DNA of 46,509 nucleotides from Candidatus Eisenbergiella stercoravium (GTDB lineage Bacteria; Bacillota; Clostridia; Lachnospirales; Lachnospiraceae), in NCBI GenBank assembly GCA_019113175.1, contig DXHY01000008.1, positions 1-46,509 on the forward strand, in the 5' to 3' direction. Of the stretch, positions 9,822 to 24,626 are shown in pieces (the stretch's first letter is position 1; every line of letters starts with the position of its first letter). The notes below the pieces were generated by a model. That model searched no databases. It was not told the DNA's origin and was given only the letters and a program-made list of their open reading frames with translations. The position numbers and the translations under genes were made by a program.

Positions 9822-9829
9822 TCATTCTA

Positions 9830-10193
9830 TGGACCAGACGGGAGTCGAACCCGTGTCCAAAAGCCCATTCCCTGTCCTTCTACTACCGTAGTCAGTTCTT
9901 ACCGAAAAGGCTTACGCCTCTTCCATTCCCTCCGCCGCGCGGAAACGGACATCCCCGCGGTTTCAGTAGCTTCATCATACGCCCACAGGCTCAAAGCTTT
10001 GCCGGTGTCGTTTCCTACATAGTCGATGCCCGAGCTCCGAAGTGTAGGTGCCCCGGTTCGGACAACGCTGCTTTAAGCAGCAGCGTAAGCTAAAGTATTG
10101 TCTTCAGCGTTTATATTTAGGTTTGTGATTTGACGCATCACCTGCGGGTAGCTTCTCCAGCTGCAGGACCCCTGTCGAAACCTTGACTGGCCC
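9830..10193 (-). ncRNA. ssrA: Transfer-messenger RNA (tmRNA, SsrA)
   Basis: Rescues stalled ribosomes with SmpB: it acts as alanyl-tRNA, then as mRNA for a degradation tag. The 5' arm GGGCCAG (at 10187-10193) pairs with the 3' arm CTGGTCC, with discriminator A at 9830, giving a seven-pair acceptor stem including one G-U. The T-arm GGGTTCGACTCCC is present near the 3' end and the 5' part includes GTCAAGGTTTCGACAGGGG. The tag frame at about 10107-10076 reads AEDNTLAYAAA followed by TAA, resuming after TATAAAC. CCA does not appear to be encoded. Length of about 364 bases is normal for a one-piece tmRNA. smpB lies directly upstream on the same strand. Confidence 0.96.
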
Positions 10194-10291: not shown

Positions 10292-10756
10292 TCACAGATT
10301 TTTCACCTTGAAATCCCGTTCCACTTCCCTGCGCATATCCTTTTTGGCGATATCCTGCCGCTTGTCATACAGCTTTTTGCCCCGGCATAATCCGATTTCA
10401 ATTTTCGCCCTTCCGTTTTTGAAATAGACCTGAAGGGGCATGAGAGTATAACCGCGTTCCGCCACTCTGCCCGCAAGCTTTGAGATCTCTGCCTTATGCA
10501 TGAGGAGCTTGCGCGTCCGCAGGGGATCCTTGTTGAAAATATTTCCCTTCTCATAAGGGCTGATATGCATGCCATTCACATAGGCTTCACCCTTATCGAT
10601 GGAAACAAAAGCTTCCTTGATGCTGCATTTTCCCATCCGCAGGGACTTCACCTCCGTGCCGTGCAGCACCAGCCCTGCTTCGTATTTTTCTTCCACAAAA
10701 TAGTCGTGAAATACCTTTTTATTATTTGCAACAAGCTTCTGCGCTTCCTTTGCCAT
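10292..10756 (-). CDS. smpB: SsrA-binding protein SmpB
   Basis: Binds tmRNA and brings it to stalled ribosomes; required for trans-translation. The 154-residue protein shows the OB-fold core with [56 protein letters not shown] and the basic C-terminal tail [17 protein letters not shown] that reads the empty mRNA channel. Start ATG 10756 follows GGAGGG by 5 bases; it overlaps the rnr 3' end by 35 bases, so translation is coupled. Neighbours rnr and ssrA are the conserved partners. Confidence 0.97.
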
Positions 10757-12959
10757 ATTTTCCCTCCATGTCATCTTCAGCCGGAATGAAATCAATGCTT
10801 CTGGTAAACCGGTCCGCAAACCGCACCTGCACCCGGATGCGCTCTCCCAGCCGGTAGGCCGTTCCCGTCTTCGTTCCCCGCATCTCGCAGGCGGTCTCAT
10901 CATACTGGAAAAAATCCCCTGGCAGCGAGGACACATGCACCAGGCCCTCCACCGTATTGGGAAGCTCCACGTACAGCCCCCAGGAAGTGATGCCGGAAAT
11001 TACGCCCTCGTATACTTCTCCAATATGCTGTTCCATATATTCCGTCATCTTCAGTTTTCCCGCTTCCCGTTCCGCCTCGTCCGCACGCCGCTCTGCCCGG
11101 CTGGTCTGAGATGCAACAGAATCCAGAATTGACTCATAATGAGCCTGTCGTACATCACCCAGCCGTCCGGAAAGCTGTTCCTTGATGATCCGGTGGATCT
11201 GAAGATCCGGATACCTGCGGATGGGCGAGGTAAAGTGGCAGTAATAGCGGCTTGCCAGCCCGAAATGCCCTGTGCACTGAGTGGTATAGCGCGCCTGCTT
11301 CATGCTCCTTAAGGTGAGCCTTCCGATCAGATTTTCCTCAGGCGTACCCTCTGCCTTTTCCAGAAGCTTCTGCAGCTCCTTCGGATGTACCTCCTCCTGG
11401 CCGACTTTCATGGAATACCCCAGATTGTGAACAAAGGTCGCCAGCCTGCGCATTTTGTCCTGGTCCGGCGTCTCATGGGTCCGGTACAGGAAAGGCGTCT
11501 GCAGCCAGTAAAAATGCTGAGCCACCGTTTCGTTGGCGAGCAGCATGAAGTCCTCGATCAGGCGGGTCGCCGTATTCCTCTCATGCGGCACGATCTCCAC
11601 CGGACGGCCGTCCCCATCCAGCCGGATCCGGCTTTCCGGGAAGTCAAAGTCCACCGCCCCTCTTCTGTGCCTGTTTTCCCGGATCAGCGCGGACAGAGCC
11701 GCCATTTCCCGGAACATGGGGACGAAACGTTCATACCGGGCACATTCCTGCGGATCGTCCCTTTCCAGAATCGCAGCGACGGAGGTATAGGTCATCCGTT
11801 CGTCCACACGGATTACGGTTGGCGCGATGGTGTAATCAGCCACCTCGCCCTGCGCATTCAGCTTCATCAGACAGCTCAGCGCCAGCCTGTCCTCTCCCGC
11901 GTTCAGAGAGCAGACGCCGTTGGAAAGTACATGAGGCAGCATGGGAATCACCCGGTCTGCCAGATACACGCTGGTTCCCCGGCGGAGAGCCTCCGCATCC
12001 AGAGCCGTGCCCTCCTGCACATAGTGGGACACATCCGCGATATGCACGCCAAGATGATAATACCCATCCTTCCGGTACAGACTCACCGCATCATCCAGAT
12101 CCTTCGCGTCCTCCCCGTCGATAGTCACCATAGGAAGGGCACGCAGATCCATGCGGCCGGACAGCTCCGGCCCGTCTCCGCCTTCAGGTTCTCCAGTTCC
12201 GGCGTCACACTCTCCCGATTTCCCCGTTGCCGGCCTGGCCGCATATTCCGCCTGACGCAGCACCTCCTCCGGAAACGTATCAGGAATCCCACAGCTTTTT
12301 ACAATGGAAAGGATGTCTACGCCGGGATCATTGATATGGCCCAGAATCTCCGCGATCCGTCCTTCCGGGCTTCTTCCCTGTCCGCCATAGTCCGTAATCT
12401 CCACAATCACCTTGGAACCTGTAACTGCACCGCCCGCTTTTTCCTTCGAAATAAAAATATCCCTTCCAAACCTGCTGTTATCCGGAATCACAAAGCCGAA
12501 GCTTCTGTTCTGCTGGAAGGTGCCGACCACCTGCGTCATTCCCCGCGCAAGAATCCGGACCACCTCCGCTTCCTGCCGTCCGCCGGGATAGCCGCCGAGC
12601 AGCCTTACTTCCACCGTATCCTGATGACAGGCGCCATTGGTCTTTGCCGCCGGGACGAACAGATCTTCCCTGCGTCCCTCCACCTCCACGAATCCAAAGC
12701 CCTTCTGATGGCCGATGAAGGTCCCGATCACCGGAGGCACAGAAGGAACGGAATACCTTCCCCGCCGGTTCACCTGAATCTTTCCTTCCAGCAGAAGCTC
12801 CTGCAGCATCCTTTTCAACTCCGCCCTTTCCTCTGCCTGCACCTGCATCAGACAGGCCAGCTCCTTTTCCTTCATGGGAACGTAGGAAGGCTCCTTCATG
12901 AGCGCAACAATTTTCTTTTTTCTGTTTTCTTCCATCTGTGCGTTCTGCTTATTCGTCAA
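10722..12959 (-). CDS. rnr: Ribonuclease R
   Basis: 3'-to-5' processive exoribonuclease acting on structured RNA and on mRNAs freed by trans-translation. The 745 residues have an N-terminal winged-helix segment, cold-shock-type RNA-binding domains ([18 protein letters not shown] and [16 protein letters not shown]), the RNB catalytic domain with [14 protein letters not shown] (metal-binding aspartates) and [13 protein letters not shown], then a C-terminal S1 domain ([21 protein letters not shown]). A Gly/Glu-rich stretch near 240-265 is a variable linker. The start is TTG at 12959, with GGAGG seven bases upstream; no better ATG exists in frame. Followed by smpB with overlap; secG is upstream. 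Confidence 0.95.
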
Positions 12960-13579: not shown

Positions 13580-14200
13580 TTAATGTTTTACTGTTCCATC
13601 AGTAAAAACAATTTGTGTTACCTCATATTCGAATTTAAGATCTTCAAAATCAGTAGTGTAAAATTGCATATCAGTATCAATAAACTGATTTACTTCATAA
13701 ACAAGCTCATCTTCTGTTGCAGTTTGATTAGATGGTATTGTTTGTCCTACAAAATCGCAACCCATTTCCAAAATTGTTTTATCAAATAAATCTTTTACTG
13801 TTAGTGTTCCTTCTATCCCTTGAATATCTTTTGTAGTATTATTGGTAATCTGAAACACCATTGTACAATAATTCGAATAACGTCCACTATTTATATCCTG
13901 TGGCAATTCGCCTTTATCCGTTACAACCACAGATATATCATCCTCATTAATCTTGGTTTCATTTTCTACTACCGCAATAGACTCTTTAATAGAGTCTAAT
14001 TCGTTCTGAACTTCGTTATAATTTTGAGTAAGAGTCTCCAACTCGGACACAAGACTTTCATTTTCCGCTTTCAAACTCTCCATCTGCTCTTTTAACCCCT
14101 CATTTTCTTCTATGAGTTGGCCAGAATTTGTACAACCATTTAATAAGACCGAAAAAAATAATCCACTTATTACAACACCATTTACAAATTTAGATTTCAT
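13580..14200 (-). CDS. AT-rich coiled-coil lipoprotein of unknown function
   Basis: 206 residues: lipoprotein signal ending LLNGC (Cys23), then a heptad-like coiled coil (about 28-85, rich in E, L, K, N), and a C-terminal beta-rich domain (about 95-206, from NYCTMVFQITNNTTKDIQG) of the kind found in extracellular proteins with FxLYD-like folds. No catalytic motif. The DNA is far more AT-rich than all its neighbours and uses AT-ending codons, suggesting acquisition by transfer. GGAGGGG precedes ATG 14200, with its own promoter upstream. Family not recognised. Confidence 0.8.
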   Translation of the reverse strand: MKSKFVNGVVISGLFFSVLLNGCTNSGQLIEENEGLKEQMESLKAENESLVSELETLTQNYNEVQNELDSIKESIAVVENETKINEDDISVVVTDKGELPQDINSGRYSNYCTMVFQITNNTTKDIQGIEGTLTVKDLFDKTILEMGCDFVGQTIPSNQTATEDELVYEVNQFIDTDMQFYTTDFEDLKFEYEVTQIVFTDGTVKH

Positions 14201-14354: not shown

Positions 14355-14393
14355 AAAAACAGCCTGCATCTCTCTACAGCAGAGACGCAGGCT
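14355..14393 (-). terminator. Intrinsic terminator of the opp operon
   Basis: Minus-strand AGCCTGC/GCAGGCT stem extended by TCTCT/AGAGA (14361-14393), followed by GTTTTTATTG. Confidence 0.88.
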
Positions 14394-14465
14394 GCTATAA
14401 ACCATATCTTTTCTTTTAGCCGAAATATATCAACATTTCAAGCCAGCATCATAGTTCCTTTAAAT

Positions 14466-16286
14466 TTATCTGCCGAACTGCATATCGTTGTTGCCGGAAT
14501 CGGTAGTCCACATCTCCAGCATATTGATCGGGTCGTTGTAGTCAGCGTTCCATCCCTCACGAGCGAAGTCGAACTGTCCGTCCTTTCTTTCGTTCAGGAA
14601 TACAGACCACTCACGGGTCTCAATAGTCAGATTAATACCAATCTGAGCAAAATCCTGCTGGAGTGCTTCACCAATCGCAACGTTACCGGTTCCTTCGTTG
14701 GTAAGATAGGTCAGGTTCAGAGGAGTTTCAGCAGAAAGCATTCCGTTCTCGTCAAATACGAAACCAGCGCCTTCCAGAAGGGTTCTCGCCTCTTCCAAAT
14801 TTCCTTCCAAATCCGTAGGATCAAAGTATCCAACCGCCTCTTCGTTCGGATAGGTATAAGCGTCATCGTTCACTCTGAACTCGCCGCCCTGTCCATCGCT
14901 CATTCCGGTAGGAATGAAGGTGTTTGCGATCTCCTGATCTGCCTGTGCGATGGTATCAACGATGTACTGACGGTCAACCAGAAGGTTCATGGCCTTTCTC
15001 ATGTCAGCAGCCTGCTGAACGGTCTTGCCTTCGAAGATCGGGCTGTTTACATTGAAGCCGGCATAGTAGGTTCCCAGCGTAGGAATGTTGTGATATTCAG
15101 GCATTCCCTTAGCGGTTTCCATGTTATCGGTTCCGATGGAGTCGATGAACTGCAGAGAGCCGTCCATGAAAGCGTTCCATACTGCGGTGTCATCATCGCT
15201 GAGCATGAAGTCGATTCTCTCAAGGGTAACAGCGTCCGCATTGTAGTAGTTCGGGTTCTTCTCATAGGTCATGGATTCGTTATGCGTCCATCCGGTGCAG
15301 ACAAACGGACCGGAAGAAACGAAACCAGCCTCAGTGCACCATGCACCCGGATTTTCCGCATATCCGTCAGCGCCTTCTACAGCAGCCTGAGGAACGGGAT
15401 AGAATGCCGGGAATGCGCACAGATCCAGGAAATACGGGCAGGGAGCAACCAGCTGAACGGTAAAGGTCTTTCCGTCTTCGCTCGCTTCCACCTGCAGGGT
15501 TCCGTCATCGTTCTTCGCGATCACGTCTGCAAGGTAAGCGTAGTCAGCTCCGGTATCCGGATTTGCCAGTCTCTGCCAGCTGTATTCCACATCGGCAGCG
15601 GTCAGAGGGGTTCCGTCGGACCAGGTCAGACCATCCTTCATGGTGAAGGTATAGGTCAGGCCGTCTTCGCTCTCGGTATAGCTCTCCGCAAGATCAGGAA
15701 CAAGCTGTCCGTTCTCATCATAAGTGAACAGACCGGAGAAAGCAAGGATTGCCAGGCAGGCTCCGTCAACCGTGGAGTTCAGCGCAGGATCCAGCTTATC
15801 AGGCTCGGAAGCGATCTGCAGGGACAGGGTGTTGCCCGGAGCGGTCGCAAATCCGAAATACTTATAGCCATACAGGTTCGCATAGATGTTATCCACATCC
15901 TCAGACTGCATGTAAACATCGTTATAGTAGTACAGGGGCATGATTGCCCAGGTGCTCATCAGCTCGTCCTCAGCCTCATGCATCAGAGCTTCGCGGGCTG
16001 CCAGATCAGTGGTCGTCTTGATCTCGGCGATTCTCGCATCATAGTCTTCCCAGGCAGGCGCAGCCTCGCTGGAAGGGCCATGCTCTCCGGATGCGGCAGC
16101 TTCTTCCGTGGCAGCCTCTGTAGAAGCCTCGGTGGATTCCGCAGCTTCAGTGCTCTCAGCGGCAGACTCTGCGGTCGTCTCTGCGGGTGCAGAGCTTTCC
16201 GTCGTGGTCGTAGAAGAACCACAGCCTGCGAGAGTACCGATAACCATGGAAGCAGCCAGCACTAATGCCAGATACTTTTTCTTCAT
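14466..16286 (-). CDS. oppA: Oligopeptide-binding lipoprotein OppA with circularly permuted order
   Basis: Extracellular peptide-capturing lipoprotein of the Opp ABC importer. The 606 residues start with a signal ending LAGC (Cys22) and a Thr/Ser/Glu/Ala-rich linker. Residues about 78-150 (YDARIAEIKTTTDLAAREAL, then MPLYYYNDVYMQ and LYGYKYF) match what is normally the C-terminal end of OppA-type proteins (compare E. coli OppA, FDKLMADTLKVTDEAQRSAL then VPVYYY). The usual mature N-terminus, NTLSLQIASEPDKLDPALN, begins only at about 152. The protein ends WTTDSGNNDMQFGR, just where the displaced block would normally continue. Both junctions are in frame. Start at 16286 has GGAGG eight bases upstream; the ATG two codons earlier is too close. 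Function as binding protein is very likely; fold viability of the permuted form is inference. Confidence 0.93.
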   Translation of the reverse strand: MKKKYLALVLAASMVIGTLAGCGSSTTTTESSAPAETTAESAAESTEAAESTEASTEAATEEAAASGEHGPSSEAAPAWEDYDARIAEIKTTTDLAAREALMHEAEDELMSTWAIMPLYYYNDVYMQSEDVDNIYANLYGYKYFGFATAPGNTLSLQIASEPDKLDPALNSTVDGACLAILAFSGLFTYDENGQLVPDLAESYTESEDGLTYTFTMKDGLTWSDGTPLTAADVEYSWQRLANPDTGADYAYLADVIAKNDDGTLQVEASEDGKTFTVQLVAPCPYFLDLCAFPAFYPVPQAAVEGADGYAENPGAWCTEAGFVSSGPFVCTGWTHNESMTYEKNPNYYNADAVTLERIDFMLSDDDTAVWNAFMDGSLQFIDSIGTDNMETAKGMPEYHNIPTLGTYYAGFNVNSPIFEGKTVQQAADMRKAMNLLVDRQYIVDTIAQADQEIANTFIPTGMSDGQGGEFRVNDDAYTYPNEEAVGYFDPTDLEGNLEEARTLLEGAGFVFDENGMLSAETPLNLTYLTNEGTGNVAIGEALQQDFAQIGINLTIETREWSVFLNERKDGQFDFAREGWNADYNDPINMLEMWTTDSGNNDMQFGR

Positions 16287-16339
16287 AATCATTTCCTCCC
16301 GTGAAAATAGATTTTCAGATACGGTTTATATTATACAAC

Positions 16340-16377: not shown

Positions 16378-17334
16378 TTATCTGTTCCAGCAGGCAACCA
16401 TGTGTCCGTCTCCTCTGTCGGTCAGGGCCGGACACTCCTGTGCGCACTTCTCCGTCGCATAACGGCAGCGGGTACGGAACGCGCAGCCGCTGGGCATGTG
16501 CAGGGGGCTGGGAACATCGCCCTCCAGCACGATTCTCTGTCTTTCCTTCGCCATCTTGGGATCCGGATAAGGAACCGCGCTTAAAAGGGACTGGGTATAG
16601 GGATGAAGCGGATTGTCATTCAGCTCATTGGAATCGGCAATCTCCACGATTCTTCCCAGATACATGACCGCAATACGGTCAGATATATGATGCACTACCA
16701 GCAGGTCGTGGGCGATGAACAGATACGCCACGCCCAGCTTCTCCTGGAGTTCTTCGAACATGTTGATGACCTGCGCCTGAATGGAAACGTCCAGCGCGCT
16801 GACCGCCTCGTCGCAGACGATGAACTTCGGATTGGTCGCCAGCGCTCTCGCGATACCGATACGCTGTCTCTGACCGCCGGAAAACTCATGGGCATAACGG
16901 GTTGCATGCTCCGCGTTCAGTCCCACCAGCTCCATCAGGTTGATGATCTTCTCTCTGCGCTCCGCCTTGTTGGAGTACAGCTTATGTACATCCAGAGGCT
17001 CTCCGATAATGTCCTCAACCGTCATACGGGGATTCAGGGAAGAATAGGGATCCTGGAACACCATCTGCATCTCTTTTCTCATATGCTTGATGCTGCTCTC
17101 ATCCACCTTTTCTCCGTTGTACAGAACCTCCCCCCCCGTCGGCGTATAAAGCCTTAAGAGGGAGCGGCCCACCGTCGTCTTTCCGCAGCCGGACTCTCCG
17201 ACCAGGCCGAGGGTCTCGCCGGGCTTAATGGAAAACGATACTCCATCAACCGCTTTCAGCGGGATTTTCTTAAACCCGACCTTGATCGGGAAATACTGCT
17301 TCAGGTCCTTGACCTCTACCAGATATTCACTCAT
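16378..17334 (-). CDS. oppF: Oligopeptide ABC importer ATP-binding protein OppF
   Basis: One of the two cytoplasmic ATPases that power peptide uptake. The 318 residues show Walker [10 protein letters not shown], signature [16 protein letters not shown], Walker [14 protein letters not shown]-loop IAHDL, and the C-terminal oligopeptide/dipeptide extension with four cysteines ([19 protein letters not shown]), which in Opp/Dpp ATPases binds a 4Fe-4S cluster or metal. ATG 17334 overlaps the oppD stop by 4 bases. Confidence 0.95.
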
Positions 17335-18335
17335 TGATTCGCGCCTCCCTGTTTTGCGAGCATCTCTTCCTTCACGTTCAGCCAGCAGGACGCAAAATGT
17401 CCGTCAGGCATCTGCATTTCCGGCGGAACCTGCTCAATGCAGATCTTCATCGCGTTCTCGCAGCGGGGGCAGAACGCGCAGCCCTTTGGCATATTCAGAA
17501 GGTTAATGGGCGTACCCGGGATGGGCACCAGCTTCTCACCGATTCTGTCCACATTGGGAATGGAGCGCAGAAGGCCCTTCGTATATTCGTGACGCGGACG
17601 ATAGAAAATATCTTCCGCCGTACCTCTCTCGCATACACGTCCGCCGTACAGTACAATAATCTCGTCGCACAGTTCGGCAATCACGCCCAGATCGTGGGTT
17701 ACCATGATGATGGCCATGCCAAGCTTCTTCTGAAGATCCTGCATCAGCTCCAGAATCTGCGCCTGGATGGTCACGTCCAGAGCCGTGGTAGGCTCATCCG
17801 CGATCAGAATATCAGGCTCGCAGGCCAGGGCCATAGCGATCATGACACGCTGACGCATACCGCCGGACAGCTCATAGGGATACTGCTTCACACGCTTCTC
17901 CGGCTCATTTACGCCTACCAGCGTAAGCATTTCCACTGCGCGTGCCTCCGCAGCCTTTCCCTTTCTGTCGGTATGCAGCTCGATGGCCTCGCGGAGCTGG
18001 TTGCCCACGGTAAATACGGGATTCAGGCTGGTCATGGGATCCTGGAAAATGATGGAACAGCATTTTCCGCGGAAATCCCTCATCTGCTTTTCCGTATATT
18101 TGGTAATGTCCTGTCCCTTGTACAGAACCTGTCCATCCGTAATCCGTCCGTTCTTTTCCAGGATCTGCATGATGGAATAGGCGGTAACGGATTTTCCGGA
18201 ACCGGATTCTCCCACGATGCCGAGGATCTTTCCCTTTTCCAGATCAAAGGATACGCCGTTTACTGCCATAACCTCCCCGTTGTCCGTTTTAAAGGAGGTA
18301 TGAAGATTTTTTACTGAAAGTATTGTCTCACTCAT
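17331..18335 (-). CDS. oppD: Oligopeptide ABC importer ATP-binding protein OppD
   Basis: Second importer ATPase, 334 residues. Walker [10 protein letters not shown], signature [16 protein letters not shown], Walker [14 protein letters not shown]-loop VTHDLGV, and the C-terminal cysteine extension [14 protein letters not shown]. It pairs with OppF beneath the OppBC permeases. Located 18 bases after oppC. Confidence 0.95.
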
Positions 18336-18353: not shown

Positions 18354-19448
18354 TTATCTCTTCAGCTTCGGATCGAACGCGTCACGCAGACCGTCTCCAA
18401 GAAGGTTGAAGGCCAGCGTGATCAGGCAGATCATAAGCGCCGGGAAAATCAGCTTCCAGGGATAGGCGCTGATACCTGCTCTCGCATCATTCGCCAGAGA
18501 GCCGAGGGAGGGCATGGGAGCCTGTACGCCCAGTCCGATAAAGCTCAGAAAGCTTTCCGTAAAGATTGCGGAAGGAATCTGCAGAGCCGCGGAAATGATG
18601 ATGACGCTGATGCAGTTGGGCAGAATATGGCGGAAGATGATCCGCTTCGGCTTCGCACCGCTCACCTTTGCCGCGAGCACATAATCATTCTGCTTGATGG
18701 TCAGAATCTGGCCGCGCACCAGACGGGCCATGCTCACCCAGTACAGGAGAGCAAATACCACAAACATGGAAAGCATGTTGGTTCCGATCTTCTGCAGGAA
18801 CGGGAAAGCGCTCACATCCAGAACCTCATTCAGCACCACGGAAAGCAGAACCACCATCAGCGTATCCGGAAGGGAATATATGATATCCACGATACGCATC
18901 ATGACAAGGTCCACCTTGCCGCCGAAATATCCGGAAACACTTCCGTAAAGATTACCGATCACCAGCACGATGATCGCGGCAAACACACCGACGATCAGAG
19001 ATACTCTGGTTCCATAGAGCACACGCACAAAGTAATCGCGGCCCATCGCATCCGTTCCCATGATATGAGGGAACACCTTACCGCCTTCCGCAATGTACTC
19101 CTGCTCCAGTTCAGAATACTGGAAGGGAGCCATATTGGCAATCGTTCTGTCACGGCTTCCGTTGACACGGATGATTTCCGAATACTCATAAGGGATAAAC
19201 ATCGGTCCGAAAATGATCAGAAGAATGATCAGAATCAGAACGATTATACTTCCCACCGCGAGAGGATTTTTCATCAGTCTGCGCATGCCGTCCTTAAAAA
19301 AGGAAACAGATTCGCTCATCACGTCCTGCTGCTTCTTTTCCTCATCCGTCGCCTTTTCAAACTTCTTGAGATCGATCTGCAGGCTTAAGGGAGACTTTTC
19401 CGGCATGGCGTTGATATCTTTTTTCATATTGTTCTCTAACGTACTCAT
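18354..19448 (-). CDS. oppC: Oligopeptide ABC importer permease OppC
   Basis: Membrane subunit, 364 residues. A cytoplasmic N-terminal tail of about 60 residues precedes TM1 (NPLAVGSIIVLILIILLIIF). The large loop carries HIMGTDAMGRDYFVRVLYG, and the EAA-type coupling motif VSGAKPKRIIFRHILPN contacts the ATPases. Six helices as usual. The N-terminal tail is longer than in E. coli OppC. 17 bases after oppB. Confidence 0.94.
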   Translation of the reverse strand: MSTLENNMKKDINAMPEKSPLSLQIDLKKFEKATDEEKKQQDVMSESVSFFKDGMRRLMKNPLAVGSIIVLILIILLIIFGPMFIPYEYSEIIRVNGSRDRTIANMAPFQYSELEQEYIAEGGKVFPHIMGTDAMGRDYFVRVLYGTRVSLIVGVFAAIIVLVIGNLYGSVSGYFGGKVDLVMMRIVDIIYSLPDTLMVVLLSVVLNEVLDVSAFPFLQKIGTNMLSMFVVFALLYWVSMARLVRGQILTIKQNDYVLAAKVSGAKPKRIIFRHILPNCISVIIISAALQIPSAIFTESFLSFIGLGVQAPMPSLGSLANDARAGISAYPWKLIFPALMICLITLAFNLLGDGLRDAFDPKLKR

Positions 19449-19465: not shown

Positions 19466-20377
19466 TTAGTCCAGCTTAATACGGGGATCAATCAGCTTGT
19501 ACACGATATCTGTAAGCAGGTTCACCGTAACCATGAGGACGGCAAGGAAAATGGTCGTTCCCATGATCAGAGTATAATCCCGGTTCGTGATGCCCTCGAC
19601 GAATTTCGCGCCGAGGCCGCCGATGGTGAAGATCTGTTCCACGACAAGAGAACCCGTAAGGATGGACGCCGTCATCGGTCCCACATAGGTGATGACCGGA
19701 ATCAGGGCGTTTCTCAGCGTATGCTTGAATATCACCTTCAGAGTGGATACGCCCTTGGCTCTTGCCGTACGCACATAGTCCTGTCCCATTACGTCCAACA
19801 TGCTGGTCTTGGTCAGACGGGTGATGTATGCCATCGGGTAGGCTGCCAGGGATATCACGGGAAGCACATAGTTTCGGTTATCCACACTCCATACCGGAAT
19901 CCACCCCAGCTTCACGCAGAATACCAGCAGAAGCAGCGTACCCAGAACAAAGCTTGGCAGCGACGTCAACAGAGTGGAAAAGAATATGATCAGCCGGTCC
20001 GGCAGATGGTTTCTGGTCAGCGCCGCAATACTTCCGAAAATCACGCCGAGAATGACTGCAACCACCACAGCCATGCCGCCCAGCTTTGCGGACACCAGGA
20101 AGGATTCTCCGATTACCGTCTTAATCTCACGGCCCGTTTTCAGGGAAATGCCGAAATCTCCGTGCAGGAGATTGTTCATATAAATGACGAACTGCTCCGG
20201 CACCGGTTTATCCAGGTTGTATCTTCTCTCCAAAGCCGCCCGGACCTCTTCCGAGATTGCCTTCTCTCCGTCGAACGGTCCGCCCGGAATCGCATTCATG
20301 GCAAAGAATGTGATCGCGCAGATGATCAGCAGAGTAACGATGGCAAGAAAAACTCTCTTCACTACGTACTTTACCAA
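19466..20377 (-). CDS. oppB: Oligopeptide ABC importer permease OppB
   Basis: Membrane subunit, 303 residues. Begins MVKYVVKRVFLAIVTLLIIC (TM1), followed by the periplasmic GGPFD region, helices, and the EAA motif ARAKGVSTLKVIFKHTLRN. The start is a TTG at 20377, preceded by AAAGGAG at 8 bases, and gives the normal OppB N-terminus. The longer ATG frame upstream lies in the untranslated leader. Confidence 0.93.
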   Translation of the reverse strand: MVKYVVKRVFLAIVTLLIICAITFFAMNAIPGGPFDGEKAISEEVRAALERRYNLDKPVPEQFVIYMNNLLHGDFGISLKTGREIKTVIGESFLVSAKLGGMAVVVAVILGVIFGSIAALTRNHLPDRLIIFFSTLLTSLPSFVLGTLLLLVFCVKLGWIPVWSVDNRNYVLPVISLAAYPMAYITRLTKTSMLDVMGQDYVRTARAKGVSTLKVIFKHTLRNALIPVITYVGPMTASILTGSLVVEQIFTIGGLGAKFVEGITNRDYTLIMGTTIFLAVLMVTVNLLTDIVYKLIDPRIKLD

Positions 20378-20730
20378 CTGTAACACTCCTTTTCTTTTCA
20401 GTATATTGCACAAAGGCTGCAGGTAAAGACGCATCCTTTGTTCTACTGTGTTTTTACTGATATAGATGCCTGATCCAAACAGTTTCTCCTGCCGCACGCC
20501 AAAACGTCTTTCTCACAAGGATAGATATGTTTCCTGTACGGACATGAAGCCCAAATAACAGACGCCGCGCACTGCGAGGCGTCTTTATGTACAATAAATG
20601 ACGCCCGGGGAAACCGGCCGTCACGCTGTGTACAGCAGCCCCTTATGGCACCTTTGCCACGGATACACCTGCTTATTATTCTGTCATGCCTGCAGCGGTA
20701 CTGACCGCAGGTCTTCATATCAGCTGTTAC
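20378..20730 (-). other. Long untranslated leader of the opp operon
   Basis: About 350 bases between promoter and oppB with two strong hairpins: TGACG-G-CCGG/CCGG-G-CGTCA (20599-20623) and AGACGCC/GGCGTCT (20560-20584). Only a short U tract follows the second. No T-box (GGGTGGNACCGCG-type) sequence or riboswitch core was recognised. It may allow leader-level control of peptide uptake. Confidence 0.6.
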
Positions 20731-22427: not shown

Positions 22428-24626
22428 TCATTCCTGATAGCGGGTTTCCTCTGTCACGAAGTCCGGAAGTCTGTCATCCAGCACCGTGAAGTAAAGATAT
22501 TCTTCTGAGAGATGCACATCCGGCTGGAACACAACGGAGACCCCATAGTTATCATTCCAGAGTCTTCCTGTGATACCGCCGCCGGCCACATCCGTCAGAC
22601 TGTCCGGATAAAGAGCGGGCAGAATCTGTCTGATCCGGTCCTGTTCCGTATAGGTCCGGCTGATTTCACGGTCGGCGGAATAGACAACCGCTCTGGATCC
22701 GTCAGCACTGTATTCCACATTCTCCTCCTCCAGATTGTAGCAGGTAATGCTCACGCTCGCCAGCTGATCTGCAGAAAGGACGCCTCCTTCCTCTGTCCGC
22801 TCCATGTATACTCCCTGCTCCCGCAGAAGTTCCACCGTTTCCGTAAATTCCTCATAAACCGGATACTCCCAGGTATATTCCCGGTCCACCATGCCGGACG
22901 GGTTCCAGACAAAGCTCAGCTTTCCAACCGGAAGGCTGTTCAGCATGAGGCTGTAGCTGTACTTCGAAAGATCCTTCCCATAGGCCTCCAGAAGCTCTGC
23001 CGCATCACCCAGACAGGAAACCCGGTTCAGTCCGTTTCCATAGGAAATCCTCATTTCACCGCTTTTTTCAATAAAAGCGGGATCACAGATCTGATATCTG
23101 GCAGTCTGGAAGTCCGCATCTGAAAAAATCACATCCAGTTCCTCTGCGCTGTCCTCTACTCCGGCCCATATTGTCCGGTAAACCCGCCTTCCGTCCATCA
23201 GAGTATATCGGATCGAAACAGGGGTTCTTCCGTCGGAGATGGAATATGCGTCAGGCCCCTGCCTGCCGGAGTTTTCCATGTCCTCCATAGCCCTTTCCGC
23301 CAGAGCTCTCACCGCCGCGATGGTGTCCTCATCCTCCGATTCCATGGCCTTCAGCATGTACTTTTCCGGGTCCTCATGGTACATGTCCCGTCCGAACAGA
23401 TTTTCATAAAAGCCCAGATAATAGTTGTCACTTCGAAAGGCAATCCCCACGCTTTCGATTTTTTCCGCTGCCGGAATATAGGTGTCATAGCCGGTCAGGT
23501 CCAGGGCAAAGGCCGCGAAAATAACCGCCGCCGCCACTCCGGCCACAGGCAGGTGCCATTTTGCCTTCAGAATGCTTCTTACATCGAATTCATCCAGGAT
23601 CTGCAGCAGGCCATGGCTGATAAAAAGGCCGATGACCATGCCGATGATGGCAAAGGGAATGCTCCGGTCCGCCAGCTGCCAGAACCACATGCCGGAAAGC
23701 AGAGTGACCGGAACCATCAGCAGAAGCTTCACCGGAGTCCGAAGCCGTGGAAAGGCCAGTGAGCTTCCCGCCGCCTCCGCTCTTCTCTTCCGGTACAGGA
23801 ACCAGTCCACCAGTCCGTAAACGATCACCTGAACCACCATGAGAAGAAGCATCCTTCCGTAATCCGCCAGGTAACGGCCGCCATATCCCAGAAAATATTC
23901 CAGCAGTCCGCCGCTTCCCGATATCCAGGAGATGACCGGAGAGGTAAATGCGTTCTCTGCCACATTGCTGAGCCCGCAGTAGGTGACAAAGAAGGAGCTT
24001 CTCATCCCGTCAATAAGCCAGCGGAGCACGTATTCATAAAAGAAAAGGACAAAAGCGGCAAGCAGAGAAACCAGCACATTTCCCGTCAGCAGTACCGCCG
24101 CCAGCGCCATATGATAGCAGACCATGAAAAAGAGAAGATTCCCCAGATATGTGATCAGAGCATACAGAAGCACCCCGCCGGATACACCTCCCATCACCGC
24201 CCCCGTCATCAGGGCCAGAATCAGTGCTGCGAGATAACAGACTGCAAATACTGCCGCTCCGTTCAGGTAAATGACCACATATCGTCTTCTGGCGGACACG
24301 GGAACACTCAGATACAGATCCAGTTTTCTTCTGCTGTCCACCCAAGCAAAGCCCTGCACAGCCAGCAGAATCGCAAGAGCAAAAATCAGAAACAGAAAAT
24401 AATCGTTTGACAGCTCCTGCATAAATCTGTTTCCCAGCAGCTCTCCCTGCGTCCATTCCGCAATCCAGGAAGGATCCCGGGCAATCCGCCGGCTCTGTAC
24501 GGAAAGAATCATCGCCAGCCTGACCGGCAGGGCGAGGAACAGCGCAATGGCGCACAGAAGCACGGTCCAGCTTCTGCGCTTCAGATTTTCTCTGCAGTTA
24601 ACCCAGAAGGAGCCTTTTGACATCAT
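22428..24626 (-). CDS. ABC transporter permease, large (DUF6449-like)
   Basis: 732-residue membrane protein. It begins KGSFWVNCRENLKRRSWTVL and has about nine to ten transmembrane helices in two clusters (about 20-300 and 310-380), then a large extracytoplasmic C-terminal part (about 390-732) with repeated Y/D/E-rich strands. The helical half resembles permeases of YtrB/EcsB-type exporters; the C-terminal half fits the domain called DUF6449 in clostridial permeases, named from memory. It overlaps the ATPase gene by 29 bases and works with it. Substrate unknown; cell-envelope stress or bacitracin-like peptides are typical for this type of operon. Confidence 0.82.
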   Translation of the reverse strand: MMSKGSFWVNCRENLKRRSWTVLLCAIALFLALPVRLAMILSVQSRRIARDPSWIAEWTQGELLGNRFMQELSNDYFLFLIFALAILLAVQGFAWVDSRRKLDLYLSVPVSARRRYVVIYLNGAAVFAVCYLAALILALMTGAVMGGVSGGVLLYALITYLGNLLFFMVCYHMALAAVLLTGNVLVSLLAAFVLFFYEYVLRWLIDGMRSSFFVTYCGLSNVAENAFTSPVISWISGSGGLLEYFLGYGGRYLADYGRMLLLMVVQVIVYGLVDWFLYRKRRAEAAGSSLAFPRLRTPVKLLLMVPVTLLSGMWFWQLADRSIPFAIIGMVIGLFISHGLLQILDEFDVRSILKAKWHLPVAGVAAAVIFAAFALDLTGYDTYIPAAEKIESVGIAFRSDNYYLGFYENLFGRDMYHEDPEKYMLKAMESEDEDTIAAVRALAERAMEDMENSGRQGPDAYSISDGRTPVSIRYTLMDGRRVYRTIWAGVEDSAEELDVIFSDADFQTARYQICDPAFIEKSGEMRISYGNGLNRVSCLGDAAELLEAYGKDLSKYSYSLMLNSLPVGKLSFVWNPSGMVDREYTWEYPVYEEFTETVELLREQGVYMERTEEGGVLSADQLASVSITCYNLEEENVEYSADGSRAVVYSADREISRTYTEQDRIRQILPALYPDSLTDVAGGGITGRLWNDNYGVSVVFQPDVHLSEEYLYFTVLDDRLPDFVTEETRYQE

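Follow-up and report, generated by a model that had tools for sequence, protein, structure and literature searches.

The locus examined here raises the question of whether a peptide-binding lipoprotein whose C-terminal end appears to stand in front of its own start is a true circular permutation and, if so, whether it is the only one of its kind. The gene lies on contig DXHY01000008.1 of Candidatus Eisenbergiella stercoravium, the 46,509 nucleotides of which were analysed as a whole and are called the window below. Defined by its open reading frame (ORF) and by homology, the permuted oppA occupies positions 14466..16286 on the minus strand, as do all its parts, and encodes 606 amino acids plus a stop. 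Its start codon was taken to be the ATG at 16286; were translation to begin at another in-frame ATG, that at 16292, the protein would be two residues longer. The N-terminus carries a signal peptide and lipobox (MKKKYLALVLAASMVIGTLAGC, LAGC, Cys22; 16221..16286), identified from the sequence and by a pattern scan of the family, the lipobox pattern itself being our assumption. There follows a linker rich in S, T, A and E (residues 23-77, 55 residues; 16056..16220), which ends in GPSSEAAP, corresponding to the loop SSAPSW or SSAAPDW in two normal-order relatives, L102 and L103. The displaced block (residues 78-145; 15852..16055), equivalent to the C-terminal end of OppA, runs through a fused junction, FATAPG (15834..15851), from the old C-terminus into the old mature N-terminus, and the core (residues 152-606; 14469..15833) then comprises the start and middle of OppA, up to a new C-terminus, SGNNDMQFGR (14469..14498).

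In searches of the PDB with phmmer, the top match was Bacillus subtilis OppA (8are), which aligned in two stretches whose order is reversed in the window protein: query residues 152-602 correspond to 8are 20-450 (184.8 bits), and residues 82-144 to 8are 457-519. On its own the second match is weak (13.7 bits, i-Evalue 0.17), and that of the block to another OppA structure, 1b05, weaker still (5.7 bits, i-Evalue 46); with DppE (8ay0), however, the block is significant alone, residues 79-142 aligning with 450-513 (30.8 bits, i-Evalue 1.1e-6). The first-pass annotation, made from the sequence alone, had placed the C-terminal OppA segment between the lipoprotein linker and the mature start and had proposed an alignment with OppA homologues; the two reversed stretches bear this out, against 8are and DppE alike. 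Furthermore, the motif GW.ADYNDP of the window protein aligns with GWCADYNEP of OppA, any role for its Asp being our assumption. The Pfam domain SBP_bac_5 (PF00496) is matched in normal order over residues 195-600 (276.8 bits against a cut-off of 32.4), and the usual family order around it is absent, the C-terminal block preceding the start of the core. Because PF00496 spans only the middle of the protein, this arrangement, here called type A, matches the domain just as an ordinary OppA does, and such a match leaves the permutation in a blind spot.

A scan of genome contigs returned 376 relatives of the window gene, the best 80 of which were kept as loci and read, block and core being sought in all ORFs of at least 200 amino acids (blastp E up to 0.01). 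The block came before the core in 82 of the 82 ORFs that contained both (the window's own and 81 in the best 80 of the 376 loci), with a single block match in each at that threshold; six further ORFs in this survey had a weak core match and no block match. No second block at the opposite end was found in any surveyed ORF of these best 80 of 376 loci. Identity to the window gene goes down to 55% among them, and since the order is inherited in every ORF with both parts, a chance origin of the weak block match can be excluded. The first-pass annotation had proposed a search for other genomes with this order, and all 80 loci, the best of the 376 relatives, have it, many gut bacteria having inherited it. 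They include isolates of Eisenbergiella tayi, E. porci, Blautia caecimuris, Porcincola intestinalis, Roseburia sp. 1XD42-69 and Proteiniclasticum aestuarii, together with Murimonas intestini, whose record is titled 'unverified', and one complete genome (AP025576.1, L030); the others are mostly metagenome bins. The new C-terminus is also conserved, QFG[RK] being followed directly by the stop in 77 of the 81 ORFs. The exceptions are L084 (QYGR), the first copy in L089 (FLGR), L097 (one extra residue) and L094 (a longer tail); outside this set, L132 has a short tail, PLSAE. We also observed that L089 (3929-7602) holds two tandem permuted OppA genes, the first ending in FCFLGR, with cores 46% (first copy) and 62% (second copy) identical to that of the window. 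The stop-to-stop frames of L048, L068 and L094 begin about 255-305 residues before the block and are rich in A and E where seen, their true starts being undetermined.

The permuted gene lies downstream of oppB-like (19466..20497) and oppC-like (18354..19448) permease genes and of oppD-like (17331..18335) and oppF-like (16378..17334) ATPase genes, all on the minus strand. Their best families are Opp3B, Opp3C, OppD and OppF, and since the scores fall below the curated NCBIfam cut-offs, we name them by best family only. Upstream sequence reaches 5 kb or more in 63 of the 80 type A loci, and every one of these 63 carries counterparts of oppB, oppC, oppD and oppF (identity of 40% or more) ahead of the permuted gene and on its strand. 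About 70 bases after the stop lies a terminator-like hairpin of 16 pairs with a T run (14358..14396, minus strand), a consensus match only; the terminator scan overall gave no excess (5 sites against 6.2 in shuffles). Ka/Ks for the block was 0.07-0.13 against 10 relatives and for the core 0.08-0.14 against the same 10, these relatives being only 73-93% identical to the window gene; for two of the ten no block ratio was obtained, Ks being saturated. The permuted oppA is a working gene, and its block and core are both under selection. In line with the first-pass annotation, the junctions are seamless, and signal peptide and operon context are intact, as judged from the sequence and the neighbouring genes. 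Circular permutation is supported as the right description of the gene at sequence level: it fits because there is one block, the junctions are seamless, the signal peptide and operon context are intact and the new end is conserved.

Elsewhere in the window we noted a putative lipoprotein with a coiled-coil-like stretch and no clear family, directly after the opp genes (13580-14200, minus strand); a tmRNA gene (9827-10193, minus strand; tag AEDNTLAYAAA) near an RNase R gene (10722-12959); and a protein of 732 amino acids with DUF6449 and no further Pfam family (22428-24626, minus strand).

A structure prediction had also been proposed by the first-pass annotation. AlphaFold2 gave a confident model for the window protein with 53 relatives (pLDDT 92.6, pTM 0.89; 91-97 in the block), and confidence dropped without the displaced block: the core alone with 31 relatives reached a pLDDT of 79.9 and a pTM of 0.69, with the long strand 323-336 cut back to 328-336. 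We note that this control had 32 alignment rows against 54, so depth differs. In the full model DSSP reads 40-52 of the block as a strand; it needs a partner outside the block helices, which suggests docking. The top Foldseek match was OppA 8are (TM by query 0.66), and the first 25 rows had TM by query of 0.60-0.69 over 461-491 columns; since its alignment runs in sequence order, Foldseek cannot place the block. The predicted model meets the description of a two-lobed OppA fold, as a prediction only, and is at most suggestive of a block docked in its usual OppA place, no coordinates having been compared.

Where the chain was opened can be read from its relatives. The closest normal-order genes found, L102, L103 and L104 (genomes G118, G158 and G187), come from the window's own family; they are 49-64% identical to the type A cores tested and share an enlarged loop at the place of the cut, differing by the normal order of their segments. 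Of the 7 type A rows tested, all had L102 or L103 as the normal-order row nearest to their core, and 6 also had one of these two nearest to their block, the exception being L097, whose block was nearest to L149. In L102, STGGNNDMQLGK-DTSN-SSAPSWKEYDEHI is internal (loop GK-DTSN-SSAPSW at the cut place), the fold starts with TDTTTLRINLASEP, and the chain ends in NKYFMFAEKTAE (FMFAEKTAE and the stop). The permuted L057, by comparison, starts its fold with KSSEAAPDWQAYN, continues via GFKYFMFAENGDSTTLRLNLASEP and ends in SGNNDVQFGK; its fused junction is FMFAENGDSTTLRLNLASEP, to be set against the two L102 ends, FMFAEKTAE and TDTTTLRINLASEP. As far as these sequences tell, no part of the fold seems to have been lost on either side of the cut, and the old ends appear joined by about six residues. 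The new termini lie in the surface loop SGNNDMQFG(K/R) / SS..APxW..YD, between 8are 450 and 457. That the protein ends at QFGR just where the block would continue, as the first-pass annotation had put it, agrees with the normal-order loop of L102 and with the QFG[RK] end in relatives. Of the 126 normal-order rows, 22 were inspected for the loop from NND to YD: it has 15-35 residues in 11 that surround type A (L102-L104, L106, L108, L110, L146, L147, L149, L151 and L162) and 7 residues in the remaining 11 (L105, L111, L114, L115, L133, L152, L163, L168, L172 and two of L256). Since the long loops occur in the clade around type A, we infer that the enlargement is older than the cut, and opening the chain at a loop already enlarged in its nearest normal-order relatives found would cost little.

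A family profile search then revealed further ORFs with the same fused junction but different cut points. The cuts are given by the last and first positions matched, numbered on the core profile, in which the block comes after 456 core positions: type A is cut at 456 / block; type B at 320-360 / 366-386, before the strand LPTL.YLYNT; type C at 264-267 / 275-278 (252 / 277 in L185), before V/IRKAL.LAIDR; and type D at 110 / 112. Against 8are, residues 33-191 of L207 (B) correspond to 364-522 and residues 194-557 to 11-362; residues 72-287 of L166 (C) to 294-507 and 309-569 to 22-287; and residues 77-462 of L160 (D) to 138-520 and 467-577 to 20-129. L206 (C) is likewise split against DppE. The SBP_bac_5 match was split in two in all 7 proteins of types B, C and D tested and formed a single stretch in both normal-order proteins tested. 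When 75 is added to the core numbers for a rough mapping onto the model, each of the four cuts is at, or a few residues from, a loop between secondary-structure elements. On the OppA domain borders that we assume, domain III holds cuts A, B and C and domain II holds cut D, the normal ends being in domain I. Permutation had been called rare by the first-pass annotation, a view that does not hold for the OppA family, with three further cut points in the same phylum.

To gauge frequency, we used a fused-junction profile (A3; 30 rows, 138 positions). Matches spanning the junction were found in at least 10 of 391 genomes of a class sample (E <= 1e-18), at least 11 of 398 of a phylum sample (E <= 1e-22) and at least 3 of 196 of an order sample (E <= 1e-22); as the samples overlap, the profile was built in part from these very genomes and weaker matches are unlisted, these counts are neither independent nor upper limits. 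Counting each once, at least 22 genomes have a junction match, and the ORF was read in 21 of them (that of G262 is cut at an edge); G928, whose match is interrupted by a stop, is not among the 21. A search of 398 genomes with a normal-order profile (A2) supplied normal rows; with no more than three candidates scored per genome and only part of the matches listed, that search was too coarse for a count of permuted genes.

Two explanations would take the order out of the hands of permutation altogether. Assembly or binning might have rearranged a normal gene, and the window assembly is indeed a draft of 89 contigs; the same order nevertheless stands in 80 loci elsewhere, down to 55% identity and including isolates and the complete genome AP025576.1, which leaves this explanation with next to no weight. 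Misassembly had been named by the first-pass annotation as something that would refute its reading, and is rejected by the same order in 80 loci of other assemblies, as are copies of the block at both ends, since no surveyed ORF has two. Alternatively, the block could be a graft, taken from another binding-protein gene in place of a lost C-terminus, and its shortness (about 70 amino acids) and weak signal of its own leave room for this. For 19 permuted rows, the block and the core were each searched against the normal rows. The two agreed on L102/L103 in 6 of 7 A rows, and both pointed to the same clade in the D rows L160 and L161 and in the C rows L206, L166 and L159. All parts of L156 and L157 (B) were nearest to L256, as were the block and main core part of L207 and L208 (B), whose short core part was nearest to another row, with L256 second for L207 and fourth for L208. 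In favour of a graft, block and core differed in their nearest rows in L097 (A) and in L154 and L209 (B), and narrowly in L185 (C), where the block was nearest to L256 (52.8 bits), with L261 second (50.8), and both core parts to L261. Because the nearest rows mostly agree, we favour a permutation within single genes; the cut, moreover, retains the two sides of one loop with nothing missing, and we regard a graft as very improbable.

If single genes were permuted, the likely route is that the mature part was duplicated in frame and that the two redundant ends were then lost, an inference for which no intermediate has been seen. The first-pass annotation had likewise suggested tandem duplication with partial deletion, which remains plausible and has not been demonstrated, no fused double gene or remnant having been found. 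Among the 12 ORFs of at least 800 amino acids in the loci, 2 had one core and none had two. No remnants of lost ends were detected beside the permuted genes in 2760 translated pieces of their flanks (three forward frames, up to 600 bases before and 900 after, less where the stretch was shorter); the sole flank matches above 12 bits were the tandem permuted copy in L089 and, on the downstream side in L035 and L045, weak core matches that coincide with other binding-protein ORFs. Normal-order oppA genes do occur in tandem (four matches at G071:C1:2177153-2183524, two at G813:C6:241554-245262 and three at G039:C62:8670-13450), those of G813 being nearest to type B, and such tandem genes are possible raw material for permutation by duplication.

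To count origins, permuted ORFs were rotated to normal order, giving 103 permuted rows (A 85, B 12, C 4, D 2) alongside 126 normal ones, after exclusion of duplicate loci and of L257 and L211 (no block match; L211 from G928). The 229 rows, which include the identical pairs L001/L101 (the window gene), L043/L131, L106/L171 and L152/L170, became 151 when near copies were dropped. The 151-row tree is a quick search (LG+G4, SH-aLRT support only) with long-branch warnings; an 84-row tree omits 18 long-branched or composition-odd normal rows, 36 other normal rows and 13 A rows, chosen by hand. With the normal rows as a group, the larger tree needs 9 order changes, at least 7 of them forced at support of 95 or more, and the numbers are the same without the long branches. 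Constraint to a single clade gave results for C in 151 rows and for A, B and C in 84, and none for all permuted rows. C as one clade is rejected in both sets (p-AU 1.9e-4 with 151 rows, 2.4e-8 with 84), as is B (p-AU 6.0e-5, 84 rows), whereas A is not (p-AU 0.388, 84 rows). D adjoins the normal L105 (support 98) and L185 the normal L261 (98-99), while L206 falls within a clade of normal rows (100) and L166 with L159 within another (99-100). The normal-order L102 and L103 (G118, G158) fall inside type A in the 84-row tree (support 94), which would mean a reversal of the permutation or two origins.

From these trees we infer that type A is one of at least seven order changes at four loops in this phylum. 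Alternatively, the four cut types could go back to just one or two old permutations, with re-permutation, reversal and gene transfer coming later. Many inner branches are unresolved, L102 and L103 sit within type A in one tree, the B rows other than L154 may share a single origin, and the trees are quick searches with SH-aLRT support alone, in which long branches may meet and the all-permuted constraint has no result. Such a history nevertheless appears improbable to us, given that C and B are each rejected as single clades, that D, L185, L206 and L166/L159 are each placed with normal rows at support of 98-100, and that supported branches force seven changes in both trees. We favour, at a probability of roughly 92%, a true, fold-preserving circular permutation of an SBP_bac_5 (OppA-family) lipoprotein serving OppBCDF, one of several that arose independently.

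The window protein resembles OppA and DppE (8are, E. coli OppA) in the homology of both pieces, the predicted fold, the oppBCDF neighbours, the signal peptide, the lipobox and the motif GW.ADYNDP, and differs in carrying a C-terminal block of about 70 amino acids in front. The one comparable case that we found is TpMglB-2 (Tp0684) of Treponema pallidum, the glucose-binding lipoprotein of an ABC transporter, which is described as circularly permuted by nature and of Type I / Cluster B ('Type Ic / Cluster Bc'), with ligand binding shown and relatives in Gram-positive gut bacteria (PMC4990184). The likeness lies in the natural permutation of a transporter's binding lipoprotein and in the gut Gram-positive relatives; TpMglB-2, by contrast, has a Type I / Cluster B sugar-binding fold, a different fold class (no direct comparison was made), and represents one permutation with a moved part poor in sequence match, unlike the OppA type, whose moved part is plainly homologous and which has several cut points. 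Assignment of the window protein to type Ic was considered and rejected, its top sequence and fold matches being OppA, DppE and other family 5 proteins. In our searches of the openly licensed PubMed Central literature we found no permuted family 5 protein, no repeated permutation inside one binding-protein family and no natural permuted binding protein other than TpMglB-2.

Of the 85 type A rows, 24 lack a recognisable lipobox (two are frames that start at a contig edge), as do 8 of 12 type B rows and 10 of 126 normal-order rows, so lipid anchoring is not universal in type A. The type A rows without one include L034, L037, L039, L053 and L078, and some of the signal sequences resemble signal peptidase I substrates; these permuted OppA proteins in which no lipobox is recognisable occur in Gram-positive relatives. 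Where the anchoring Cys was found, the stretch from it to the fold has a median of 48 residues in type A (n=61), where it takes in the old loop, and 25 in normal-order rows (n=116). The rows being related, with a few duplicates, this comparison is not independent.

It seems reasonable to infer that the permuted chain would fold to the ordinary OppA shape, bind peptides between its lobes and hand them to OppBCDF, binding and transport being untested. On the domain borders that we assume, the lipid anchor and linker would leave from the domain III lobe rather than from domain I, and A, B and C would all place the new N-terminus in the same lobe. The permutation might then be adaptive, an anchor on lobe II (or domain II) instead of lobe I changing reach or docking on the permease. 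Recurrence at few loops and the longer Cys-to-fold stretch of type A would fit this, and the authors of the TpMglB-2 report suggest tethering as a reason (PMC4990184). We nevertheless consider adaptation unlikely: the lipobox is unrecognisable in many A and B rows, the linker comparison is weak (related rows, duplicates and, in A, the old loop included), and a neutral event explains the same facts. The broader proposition, that OppA-type receptors are a permutation hot spot with at least seven independent events at four surface loops in one bacterial phylum, kept because moving the tether alters delivery, is one that we offer only tentatively and hold to be somewhat doubtful.

Natural circular permutations are, to our knowledge, usually described as one event per family, and permuted binding proteins have been engineered as sensors. 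The permuted OppA proteins are natural templates for such engineering, and L102 with type A, L105 with type D, L146 and L151 with L206, and L261 with L185 form natural before-and-after pairs. Because normal forms and forms with four cuts share a well-studied family with solved structures, the origin of permutations, the tolerance of loops and neutrality become testable in it. Within the OppA family, a supposedly rare event looks common.
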